Of a stretch of 64,000 nt of DNA, positions 28,201-40,180 are shown piece after piece. Made by a program: the position numbers and the translations under genes. How positions within the stretch are numbered: the first letter of the stretch is position 1; each line of letters opens with the position of its first letter. Origin of the DNA: Thermodesulfobacteriota bacterium. Lineage in GTDB: Bacteria; Desulfobacterota_D; UBA1144; Nemesobacterales; UBA2774. The notes under the pieces were generated by a model. The model was not told the DNA's origin. It ran no database searches and saw only the letters and a program-made list of their open reading frames with translations. The stretch spans positions 310,001 to 374,000 of the forward strand of contig JBFMCV010000001.1 of NCBI GenBank assembly GCA_040754335.1, in the 5' to 3' direction.

Positions 28201-29319
28201 ATGGACGACCGTAAGATCGGGAGATTCCTGGAACTCTTCGACCTCGGCCGTAATTTCACGGACGAAGAGCTGAAGGCCGCTTACAGGGACTTGGTGCAGG
28301 TATGGCACCCGGATAAGTATTCCAATAGCGAGCGGTTGAGAATCCGAGCGGAATCCAAGATAAAGCTTATCAACGAGGCTTACGGGACTCTTGAGGAAAT
28401 CCTCAGGAGAAAGGAAGTACGTTCGGACTCGCAAAGCGGTTCCGACGCCGCTTTTGCGCAGGGTCCGAATCCTAATATCTATTTCGGCAGCATATTCCAC
28501 ACGACCGACTTTTCCGAATTGAGCGACATCGCGTTTGCGCATGCTCTAAGGCTGGCGCTGTCATCGAACGCGAGGCTCGAGCTGTTCCATGTGCTGCCGA
28601 CACACGGCAAGGACGTCATATCGGAATTCCCCAGGATAAGGGACACGCTCGTGCGCTGGAACATTATTTCGAAGGAGAATGCAGAGGACGACCTCCGCTC
28701 GCTCGGTTTCTCCTATTCAAAAGTGGTGGCAGTTCACAAGGACCCCGTGGCCTCGATACTCAATTACTTGAGGACTCATCCGTCTGAAGTAAACGTGCTC
28801 GCCGCCCACACGAGGTCGGGTCCAGGAAACCTTCTCCACAGGTCGGTCGCGGGAAAGGTCTCCCGCGATTCGGGCGGCTGGACGCTCTTCATAAAGGACA
28901 ACGAGCGCGGTTTCGTGTCCTCGCAAGACGGAACTATAAGTCTCAGGAATATTCTCATACCTATTGACTCCGAGCCCGATCCTATGCTCGGCGTTTACGC
29001 CGCGTCGCGGCTCGCGCAGGTGTTTGGAAATAAAGCCTGCGTGTTCACTCTCTTATACGTCGGGGAGCCTGCGGATATGCCGGTCGTACGGCCACCCGGA
29101 AACGCCGGATGGGTGTGGAACACCGTAGCGCGCCGTGGGAGCATTGTGGAAAACATACTCGGCGTCGCGGATGAGGTCGCTGCCGACGTTATAGTTATGG
29201 GGACCAAGGGCAATCAGGGGTTTCTCGACGCCCTCAGGGGGAGCACTACCGAGCAGATACTCCGCAGGGGCCTGACCCCGCTGCTGACCGTGCCCGAGCG
29301 CCGTATACGGAAGAGATAA
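28201..29319 (+). CDS. J-domain fused to two universal stress protein domains
   Basis: A 372-residue protein. Residues 5-66 are a J-domain with the essential HPD motif (VQVWHPDKYSN) and KLINEAYGTLEEIL as its last helix. Two UspA-like domains follow, about 93-225 and 240-368. The second has an intact ATP-binding motif G-2x-G-9x-G-S in GTKGNQGFLDALRGSTTE; in the first the corresponding HTRSGPGNLLHRSVAG is degenerate. The J-domain would recruit and stimulate a DnaK/Hsp70, with the Usp part as a nucleotide-sensing or client module (inference). It starts 14 nt after the lipoprotein gene. Confidence 0.88.
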   Translation: MDDRKIGRFLELFDLGRNFTDEELKAAYRDLVQVWHPDKYSNSERLRIRAESKIKLINEAYGTLEEILRRKEVRSDSQSGSDAAFAQGPNPNIYFGSIFHTTDFSELSDIAFAHALRLALSSNARLELFHVLPTHGKDVISEFPRIRDTLVRWNIISKENAEDDLRSLGFSYSKVVAVHKDPVASILNYLRTHPSEVNVLAAHTRSGPGNLLHRSVAGKVSRDSGGWTLFIKDNERGFVSSQDGTISLRNILIPIDSEPDPMLGVYAASRLAQVFGNKACVFTLLYVGEPADMPVVRPPGNAGWVWNTVARRGSIVENILGVADEVAADVIVMGTKGNQGFLDALRGSTTEQILRRGLTPLLTVPERRIRKR

Positions 29320-36730: not shown

Positions 36731-39169
36731 CTATTCCTCGGGCGGACCTGCGGGCCCGGCGTCTGTCTTGTTGTCCGTTTCAGCGGGTTTGTTATAGAAA
36801 TCGTCGAGCATCCTGAACAGCTCGTCACGCTCCTGGGGCGATGTGAAGAAATCGAACCTGCCCGACGCGCGCTGCACGTTCATCAGGTCGATGAGGAAGT
36901 TATATACCGAATTGGCCGCGTTGAGGTCCGCCGAGAGCGCGGCGTTCTGAGCGTCAAGAAGGTCTAAGATGGACACGACGCCTCGGGAATAGGAATCGGT
37001 GACGAGCTCGAGGTTCTTATGCGCTGCCTCCGCCGCGTCGAGCGCGAACCCGATGCTCGGGTACGACGCCCCTGAGGCGTTGAGCGAAGTCCTTATCTGC
37101 TCTTCGACCTTTTCCGCGGTCGAGTCCCTTTCGTATCTGAGACGCGACAATTCGCTCCTGGCTTTCTTGTAGTCCGCTATTTTTGCTCCGCCCCTGAATA
37201 GCGGGAACGACGCCTGTATCTGTACGGTCCATTCGGTATCGTCCGCTGTCGCTATGTCTATCGGGAAATCGGGAGGGATATTTACATCGGAACCCGCTCC
37301 TCCTTCGTAGAGGAACTGCCTCAGCTCTCCGAACGCGAAGATGGTAGGCGACCAGAACGCCCTCTTGGTCGACGTGAGAATCCTGTCCTGGGCAGCTATC
37401 TCGGAGTCTATCGCTGCGATTGCGGGTGATAGCTTGAGTCCGAGGTTGACCATGAAATCCATGAAGACCTTGAACGATTCGGGATTGTCTACGTATTTCT
37501 CGAGCCTCGGGTCGCTCACTAGGAGCGACGGGTCTTCGAGACCCGTCTCCACCGTTGTGTATTCCTCTCCCTGCGGCCTGTGCAGGAGCCTGTTGACTAG
37601 TATCTCCGTATTCTTCCTGTCGGCTTCGGAGTTCACCACGTCTATCCTGTCTGACGATATCTGGCTTTCCCACCTGTACACCTCCGCGGGACTCGCTACC
37701 CCTATGTCCCGCCTGACCTTGGCTATCTCGAGATTGGACTTGGTAAGCTTCAGGTTCTCTTTCTGTATCCTCTCTATAGTCTTGGCCCGGAGCACGTTCA
37801 GGTACCCGATCGCCGTCGCGGCTATAATATCGAGCCTCACTTCGTCGCGCGTGAACTCCCTAGATTCCTGGAGCCGCTTCTGCACGGTGAGGTTCGACCA
37901 CGCCCTTTCGGAATATATGAGCTGGCTTACGTTCCCTCCGACGCTGATGTCGCGCTGCGGTTGTGTGCCGAGACTCGCCTCCGCCCTGTCCTTGTCTATG
38001 TATGTATTTGCGGCGAAAATGTCCGATTGGGGAAGGAGCTCGGCCATCGCGAGCCTGATATCCTGGGCCCCGGCAGCGACGAACTGGTCGGCGGCCAGGA
38101 GGTCGAGGTTGACTTCAACCGACTCGTTCACCGCCTGCTCGAGAGTGAGCGTCCTACCTTTCTCGGCGGGTTCTTCGTTTATGAGAGAGGCTTCCGTGAG
38201 TATGCTCCACGAGGGAGAAAACTTTATGGCGCGGGCTGTGGCCATATTGACCGTGAGCAGCTCTTCTTCCGAAAACTCGACGGGGAAATCCCCCGCCTGA
38301 TCGCCGAGCAGTATGCTCTGCACTACGAGCGCTACGCGGCGCGCCTCTCTGGTAATATTGTGCTCCGGCGTGAGGCCGATGAGGGCTCCCGTTTCGACTT
38401 CCCTCTTTCCCATCATGGAAAAAGAGGGGAGGTTCTTTTCTATGAGACCGTCATAGAGCTCCGCCATCTGGGACCCGGTATAGTTGATTATCGGCGAAAC
38501 GAAGACGGCCTCGGCGTCGGCTGGTATGGCCGAGAGAGACTCAGCGACAGACGCTCTCGCCGGCACGAGCTCTATGATTATATCGTTCTCGGCCGATATT
38601 TTTTTTACCGAGTTCTCGAGCGCCGGTATGAGCTCTGTCATGAGCGGCATGTAGAGGAGGGCCATCCTTTTAAAACCGACTATGTCCCTGAATCTTTTGA
38701 TGTCCCTTCCGATTGTCACGGGCCTCGACAGGTAATAGAGGTTCCCGACGCCGCTCCCCCCGCCCTCGGCGGGCGTGAGCCCCATTAACACGGGATCGAT
38801 GACCCACGGGGCGATCACCGGCTTCGGGAAAGCGGTCCTGCCCGCGGCTTCCGTCGAGCCGATTATCCCCAGAGTTATCAGAATATCGACTCCGGGGTCT
38901 GAGAGCTGCCTCTCTATCGCGGCCTTGACTCCCGCCGATGTCCAGTCGGAGGTTATTATCTTGTCCTCGGGAAACAGGACAGTGAATTCCCCTTCGGTAA
39001 GGTCTCCGATTTCCTTCTTGTAAGCCTCCAGCACCCTGTAATTCAAGTCGGAAGGGCCGTCGAAAACTATGCCGATATTGACCCCGCGGGCTTCCGGCGA
39101 AGCGGATATAATAGTGAAGATCAAAAGTGAAAGGAACGATACTAGAGTTTTGACTCCTGCCGGGGTCAT
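36731..39169 (-). CDS. TolC-family exporter with N-terminal ABC substrate-binding domain
   Basis: An 812-residue exported fusion. After a signal peptide (about 1-29), residues 30-330 form a periplasmic binding-protein fold of the ABC_sub_bind type: VNIGIVFDGPSDLNYRVLEA, VDILITLGIIGSTEAAG, AVFVSPIINYTG and SFSMMGKREVETGALIGLTP. Residues about 345-790 are a TolC-type outer membrane factor, with LTLEQAVNESVEVNLDLLAA opening the first repeat and NLELVTDSYSRGVVSILDLL in the second. It is first in the efflux operon. The binding domain would lie on the periplasmic side and might sense or present a substrate (inference). The total is nearly twice the usual TolC length. Confidence 0.88.
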   Translation of the reverse strand: MTPAGVKTLVSFLSLLIFTIISASPEARGVNIGIVFDGPSDLNYRVLEAYKKEIGDLTEGEFTVLFPEDKIITSDWTSAGVKAAIERQLSDPGVDILITLGIIGSTEAAGRTAFPKPVIAPWVIDPVLMGLTPAEGGGSGVGNLYYLSRPVTIGRDIKRFRDIVGFKRMALLYMPLMTELIPALENSVKKISAENDIIIELVPARASVAESLSAIPADAEAVFVSPIINYTGSQMAELYDGLIEKNLPSFSMMGKREVETGALIGLTPEHNITREARRVALVVQSILLGDQAGDFPVEFSEEELLTVNMATARAIKFSPSWSILTEASLINEEPAEKGRTLTLEQAVNESVEVNLDLLAADQFVAAGAQDIRLAMAELLPQSDIFAANTYIDKDRAEASLGTQPQRDISVGGNVSQLIYSERAWSNLTVQKRLQESREFTRDEVRLDIIAATAIGYLNVLRAKTIERIQKENLKLTKSNLEIAKVRRDIGVASPAEVYRWESQISSDRIDVVNSEADRKNTEILVNRLLHRPQGEEYTTVETGLEDPSLLVSDPRLEKYVDNPESFKVFMDFMVNLGLKLSPAIAAIDSEIAAQDRILTSTKRAFWSPTIFAFGELRQFLYEGGAGSDVNIPPDFPIDIATADDTEWTVQIQASFPLFRGGAKIADYKKARSELSRLRYERDSTAEKVEEQIRTSLNASGASYPSIGFALDAAEAAHKNLELVTDSYSRGVVSILDLLDAQNAALSADLNAANSVYNFLIDLMNVQRASGRFDFFTSPQERDELFRMLDDFYNKPAETDNKTDAGPAGPPEE

Positions 39170-39293: not shown

Positions 39294-39323
39294 TTGTTTT
39301 TAAAACTTTACGTGGTGTATAAT
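39294..39323 (+). promoter_or_regulatory. Sigma-70-type promoter of the cyanovirin-like gene
   Basis: TTGTTT (39294-39299), an 18-nt spacer and a perfect TATAAT (39318-39323) lie about 35 nt upstream of the ATG at 39365, which has GGGAGGA as ribosome site. Confidence 0.5.
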
Positions 39324-39364
39324 TTGGGCAAAACTGTGATCGATTGCGATAAGGGAGGACTTGT

Positions 39365-40180
39365 ATGAACTCGACTTCGCCAGTGAAACGCATAGCCGCT
39401 TTGTCATTCGCATTAATGATTTGTTTTATTATTTCAAACGTATATGCAAACGCGCAAAACCTCCCTCCCGGGAGCTATAAGGACACCTGCAGGTCTATCA
39501 ACGTGTACGGCGGTAACCTCACGGCCCAGTGTCAGAAGGCGGACGGGAGCTGGAAGAATACGTCAATTCAGTACTACGACTGCGAGGGGGGTATCACGAA
39601 CGAGAACGGCAACCTCACCTGCAAGCACAAGCCTAAGCCCGATAAGCCTCTTCCCAGGGGAAGCTACAAGCAGAGCTGCAAGGATTCTTATGTAGAGGGG
39701 AAGTGGCTATATTCCAAATGTAAGAGGACGAACGGCAACTGGAACAATACTTCGATCAAATACGCCGACTGCGGCAAGGACATTTGGAACAACAACGGTG
39801 TGCTCACATGCGGCGGCGGTACCTCTAACCTTCCGAAGGGGAGTTACAAGGAGACCTGCAAGGACGCCTACGTCGACGGGAAATGGCTCTACGCCAAGTG
39901 CCGGAAAAATAACGGGAGCTGGTACAGCACGTCGATAAAGTATACGGACTGCAATAAGGACATCTGGAACGATAACGGCGTGCTCACATGCGGCGGGGGA
40001 GGGGGCTCCGGTCTTCCCAAGGGGAGCTACAAGGAGTCTTGCAAGAACATATATGTAGAGGGTAACGTACTGGAGGCGGATTGTCTCAACAGGAACGGGA
40101 AGTATTCGCACACGAGCATCAAGTACAAGAACTGCAACAAGGGCGTCTGGAACGATAAAGGGACTCTCAGGTGTAACTGA
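39365..40180 (+). CDS. Secreted four-repeat cyanovirin-N homology (CVNH) protein
   Basis: A 271-residue protein with a signal peptide (about 1-30) followed by four repeats of 55-63 residues: 33-95, 96-155, 156-216 and 217-271. Each begins LP.GSYK..C, continues with .YV.G..L...C...NG....TSIKY..C and ends W...G.L.C. This is the half-domain pattern of cyanovirin-N (GxxxxTC, L...C.R.NG, TSI.L, I.N.DG.L). Four copies would give two CVNH folds. Each repeat has cysteines at positions 10, 24, 41 and 54, two more than cyanovirin-N. Known CVNH proteins bind mannose-rich glycans; carbohydrate binding here is inferred. Repeats 2 and 3 are most alike. The gene is a single unit with its own promoter. Confidence 0.85.
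   Translation: MNSTSPVKRIAALSFALMICFIISNVYANAQNLPPGSYKDTCRSINVYGGNLTAQCQKADGSWKNTSIQYYDCEGGITNENGNLTCKHKPKPDKPLPRGSYKQSCKDSYVEGKWLYSKCKRTNGNWNNTSIKYADCGKDIWNNNGVLTCGGGTSNLPKGSYKETCKDAYVDGKWLYAKCRKNNGSWYSTSIKYTDCNKDIWNDNGVLTCGGGGGSGLPKGSYKESCKNIYVEGNVLEADCLNRNGKYSHTSIKYKNCNKGVWNDKGTLRCN

Follow-up and report, generated by a model that had tools for sequence, protein, structure and literature searches.

CVNH lectins have been studied as antiviral glycan binders, and they provide a textbook case of domain swapping. Those with solved structures are two-repeat folds that exchange hairpins (PMC6359319). The type member, cyanovirin-N (CV-N; PDB 3ezm, 1iiy), has two repeats with one disulfide in each, joined by a hinge of 4 residues. 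It contacts dimannose through the NH and CO of N42, the OH of T57, the NH of D44, and the carbonyls of S52, N53, and K74 (PMC8091458). Chains with at least four repeats have been engineered, as tandem or nested CV-N (3s3z CVN2L10; Nested CV-N, PMC4926178) and as microvirin oligomers (PMC6434159), some with glycine-rich linkers. These four-site proteins demonstrate that a single chain can make use of added sites, which can raise avidity within limits set by linker geometry (PMC4926178, PMC6434159).

The window considered here, a stretch of 64,000 nucleotides, comes from a member of the little-studied Candidatus Dadabacteria. It carries a gene for a CVNH protein of four repeats, some of them joined, like those of certain engineered chains, by glycine-rich linkers (Table 1). 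The engineered proteins are man-made duplications of two-repeat lectins, whereas this one is natural and apparently grew by single repeats. The lectin family is known; what is new is the natural build from single repeats in two, three, or four copies. No paper on CVNH proteins in Dadabacteria or on bacterial CVNH repeats with four cysteines was found in a literature search that mostly did not reach subscription papers, and so offers weak evidence of novelty.

Table 1. The CVNH gene, its upstream signals, and the parts of its product, with positions in the window.
Feature	Position	Strand	Remarks
-35-like hexamer TTGTTT	39294..39299	+	weak, 3/6 matches, 18-nt spacer to -10; by sequence reading
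-10 hexamer TATAAT	39318..39323	+	perfect match, TG directly before; by sequence reading
Ribosome-binding site GGGAGGA	39353..39359	+	ATG 5 nt further on; by sequence reading
CVNH gene	39365..40180	+	271 aa; apparent single-gene unit
Signal peptide (residues 1-30)	39365..39454	+	predicted cleavage ANA/Q; hydrophobic core and A-x-A/Q site, by eye
Repeat 1 (33-95)	39461..39649	+	Cys 42, 56, 73, 86; Lys/Pro linker; PF08881 1-49, 28.8 bits alone
Repeat 2 (96-155)	39650..39829	+	Cys 105, 119, 136, 149; Gly-rich linker; PF08881 1-49, 24.2 bits alone
Repeat 3 (156-216)	39830..40012	+	Cys 165, 179, 196, 209; GGGGGSG linker; PF08881 1-49, 29.1 bits alone
Repeat 4 (217-271)	40013..40177	+	Cys 226, 240, 257, 270; PF08881 1-49, 27.0 bits alone

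The gene and the cysteine-rich repeat

The gene, its ribosome site, its signal peptide, and its four repeats had all been picked out in an earlier, sequence-only reading, and all of them hold. The bounds of the reading frame are exact, and on the opposite strand stops interrupt the register read. GGAGG-type ribosome sites are found upstream of the relatives' genes as well. The promoter claimed for the gene stands in part. Its -10 hexamer is perfect, but this is paired with a weak -35, and a consensus promoter scan does not report the promoter. Despite this, the putative -10 is credible, because TGTATAAT recurs at the equivalent upstream position in four relatives (L043, L049, L045, L007).

Most relatives retain the A-Q context of the predicted cleavage site, while the rest of the leader differs. 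A lipoprotein was considered and rejected: no lipobox accompanies Cys20, which falls inside the hydrophobic stretch and shows no conservation. With a pI of 9.1 the mature protein is basic; it contains 12% Lys and 6.6% Cys and bears no surface anchor. As far as the sequence can tell, it would be exported by Sec and soluble.

There can be scarcely any doubt that the protein belongs to the CVNH family, as had been suggested. The whole protein matches the Pfam CVNH profile PF08881 at 82.1 bits (E=5.4e-23; curated cut-off 24.5 bits) and the NCBIfam model NF052356, 'mannose-binding lectin', at 126.6 bits (equivalog cut-off 80 bits). The latter model, of 103 positions, covers two repeats, and the four of the window protein yield several matching stretches. 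A sequence search of the PDB returned CV-N, engineered CV-N, microvirin, Cyt-CVNH, and fungal and fern CVNHs. The likeness to CV-N extends to a repeat of about 50 residues, Cys8-Cys22 type spacing (14), a G-x-[FY]-x-x-[ST]-C start, an I-x-N-x-[DN]-G-x-L hairpin, and the columns of Asn42 and Thr7/57.

All four repeats have cysteines at positions 10, 24, 41, and 54. This is twice the CV-N number, as had been noticed, the extra ones being Cys41 and Cys54, both of which CV-N lacks. Cys54 stands in place of Trp49/Tyr100. Cys41 lies at the end of beta3 and is followed by an insertion of 3 residues, making a longer beta3-beta4 link, and the linkers between repeats exceed the CV-N hinge by about 8 residues. 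A set of 84 repeats from 24 Dadabacterial proteins shows no variation at Cys24, Cys41, or Cys54, and 99% of these repeats have Cys10. The hairpin N-x-x-G likewise never varies in its Asn and Gly, nor the opening P-x-G in its Pro and Gly. Repeat 4 is the best conserved among orthologues (mean identity between orthologues 74%). One two-repeat CVNH protein (L019, 1387-1833) has Ser for Cys10 in its second repeat and retains Cys24, Cys41, and Cys54, leaving one cysteine unpaired.

A nearly identical four-cysteine pattern occurs in a protein encoded on plasmid p_3 of Rhizobium lusitanum (WP_183686486.1; L037, 4893-5696), whose first repeat has Cys at 10/24/42/55 and which matches PF08881 at E=3.8e-13. 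Its N-terminus is leader-like. It differs in having three repeats and a proline-rich tail, and its identity to the window protein is 35%. Either there has been transfer between bacteria or the family is wider than sampled. The two-repeat CVNH on plasmid pn1 of Nostoc sp. UHCC 0926 is alike in the core of the repeat but lacks Cys41 and Cys54, and no signal peptide was seen in it. Type III CVNH-LysM lectins carry a LysM domain inserted between repeats, whereas a Pfam scan of the window protein finds neither LysM nor any other domain besides CVNH, and its linkers span 6-9 residues.

Exchanged pairs or single modules

It had been supposed that the four repeats make two CVNH folds by strand swap. 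In the strict form of this idea they amount to just two intertwined CV-N domains of the classical kind, (1+2) and (3+4), which is what one would expect from the solved structures, and every adjacent pair does match the full two-repeat Pfam profile (1+2 at 45.2 bits, 2+3 at 43.0, and 3+4 at 50.1). Yet the pair 2+3 scores nearly as well as the two supposed domains, and each of the four repeats on its own aligns to the first half of the profile. Nor does similarity within orthologues alternate, R1 resembling R3 and R2 resembling R4. Identity peaks instead between neighbours (R2-R3 62%, R3-R4 58%, R1-R2 50%, as against R1-R3 46% and R2-R4 50%), a pattern of single-repeat duplication rather than of the doubling of a two-repeat unit. 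The linkers, at 5-13 residues, differ little in length from one junction to the next, and none is as short as the CV-N hinge.

Then there are the family members with three repeats. A second CVNH paralogue of this kind is found seven times in genera g2 and g5 of the host's family (L006, L011, L013/L041, L020/L046, L021, L022, L027/L051). It is about 211-216 aa in length, with a signal peptide and an 'RHHHNM'-like linker ahead of repeat 3, and it occupies a different genomic place. Another family of the order contributes one more protein with three repeats, and one protein has two. A chain of three repeats is not pairable within itself, so the odd number argues against strict pairing. Taken with the neighbour similarity and the long linkers, this leans against two strand-swapped folds, which I regard as a possible arrangement though a somewhat doubtful one.

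Structure prediction bears out the CVNH-like repeats that had been anticipated and does not settle their packing. An AlphaFold model built on a five-sequence alignment (pLDDT 76.6) gives every repeat a helical turn and five strands in CVNH order. The 25 best PDB matches that Foldseek found for this model are all CVNH proteins, with E down to 3e-8. The TM-score of the model against CV-N chains is about 0.36, and its geometry between repeats is untrustworthy at a pTM of 0.32. A single-sequence model of repeats 3-4 (pLDDT 51) was too poor and was discarded.

The comparison of sequences points to the single repeat as the building module of the family. Repeats that close on themselves, a ring, and exchanged pairs are all possible packings. 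I tentatively propose that each 54-residue repeat, with its two disulfides, may be an autonomous mini-CVNH, self-closing and with no exchange of hairpins, and that growth by single repeats may have given rise to lectins of two, three, and four sites. If this is true, then the mini-domain is a naturally occurring model for the one-repeat stage implied by the two-repeat cyanovirin fold. With this family it could be tested directly whether a lone CVNH repeat is able to fold and to bind sugar.

Sugar site and proposed role

Two columns of the CV-N sugar site are fixed in the 84 repeats: that of N42/N93 is Asn in 100% of them and that of T7/T57 is Ser/Thr in 100%. The D44/D95 column, where CV-N makes contact through its backbone, is Asn in 92%, and the columns of E41, E23/K74, and T25/R76 vary. 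Specificity may thus differ from that of CV-N, considering the change to Asn and the variation at E23/K74 and T25/R76. Judging from these columns, the binding of glycans has probably been retained, and the chances that the ligand is mannose are about even.

I propose that the protein is an exported, multivalent CVNH lectin that, at the cell surface or close to it, cross-links glycans of the mannose type, a proposal that, taken whole, I consider rather likely. Once the signal peptide has been cleaved off, two disulfides would be closed in each repeat by the periplasmic machinery for disulfides, a step favored by the five DsbA-family matches in the host genome. Cys10 would pair with Cys24, as in cyanovirin-N, and Cys41 with Cys54, the latter bond fastening the beta4-beta5 hairpin at its base. 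Up to four terminal mannose-type glycans could then be bound by the four flexibly linked repeats, at candidate sites that use an Asn (CV-N Asn42/93) and a Thr/Ser (CV-N Thr7/57), both conserved. The glycans bound and cross-linked might belong to the cell's own polysaccharide, or else to detritus or eukaryotic neighbours. Being basic and unanchored, the protein would most likely do this at the cell surface or in its vicinity. This cross-linking role rests on analogy, since besides the missing anchor no polysaccharide cluster is recognised next to the gene. The suggestion that the protein is a candidate exported lectin of the CVNH family is supported by the profile matches, the signal peptide pattern, and the four repeats.

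An alternative view is that the fold was kept and sugar binding lost, the protein serving as a disulfide-stapled scaffold for a protein or cell-wall partner. The charged columns of the CV-N site (E23, K74, T25, R76, E41) are indeed not conserved, and the Asn and Ser/Thr columns may have been retained for the sake of the fold instead. It is unlikely, nonetheless, that a mere scaffold would keep the Asn42 column invariant and the Thr57 column Ser/Thr in 84/84 repeats, and most of the remaining CV-N contacts run through the backbone in any case. Still harder to credit is a lectin of defence, one that would bind the glycans of predators such as amoebae and flagellates, of fungi, or of glycosylated phage and so deter or trap them: CV-N and its relatives do bind viral oligomannose (PMC4926178), and the protein is multivalent and predicted to be exported, but it has no match of note in the defence library, has no relatives in phage genomes or viral contigs, and is encoded at a stable position in the core genome rather than in a defence island. 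A phage origin for the gene was set aside for want of such relatives, the PHROGs matches to the protein being weak, short, partial, and mutually unrelated, and an anti-phage system for want of any PADLOC hit of note.

If the multivalent lectin proposed here is real, then a natural family of two, three, and four repeats with a second cysteine pair represents a source of ready-made multivalent lectins. It also gives a candidate phylum an exported protein conserved throughout a family, where the literature searched describes no lectins.

Distribution and gene neighbourhood

The protein had been called unusual for a bacterium of this type. That is so outside the host phylum, where none of 329 sampled genomes has a CVNH match at 1e-5; a search of the phylum of genome G060 likewise found none. 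Within the host's own family CVNH proteins are the rule, occurring in 14 of 16 genomes (the two genomes without a match are 86% and 59% complete). Elsewhere in the order there are three genomes with matches, making 17 of 58 in the phylum. The host genome itself has one CVNH gene. Named relatives, 54-85% identical, are from Candidatus Dadabacteria and related MAGs.

Across five genera the four-repeat gene converges on a BrkB/YihY gene, beyond which genes for a PD-(D/E)XK protein, a GNAT protein, an M23 peptidase, and a SpoU protein follow in the same order. Comparison with four orthologues gives dN/dS of 0.07-0.25, a mark of purifying selection. That, together with the near-invariant cysteine pattern, identifies a real conserved gene far beyond what chance would produce. 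Because it is present family-wide, in fixed gene order, and under purifying selection, the gene is an old one, vertically kept within the family and no recent import.

On its other side, the gene is divergent from an RND efflux operon, which adjoins it in four genera and is absent beside it in genus g2. A functional link with the operon was given no weight, since the two are not neighbours in g2. What replaces the operon upstream of the g2 gene (L045, L034) is a relative of a protein encoded elsewhere in the window (28201-29319, +), which combines a DnaJ domain with universal-stress-protein domains. The operon includes a gene for a protein of 812 aa (36731-39169, -) with OEP/TolC domains (PF02321) in its C-terminal part and, in its N-terminal part, a weak match to ABC_sub_bind (PF04392, E=2.8e-5, just below cut-off). 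It appears to be an outer-membrane efflux factor fused to a periplasmic binding-protein domain.
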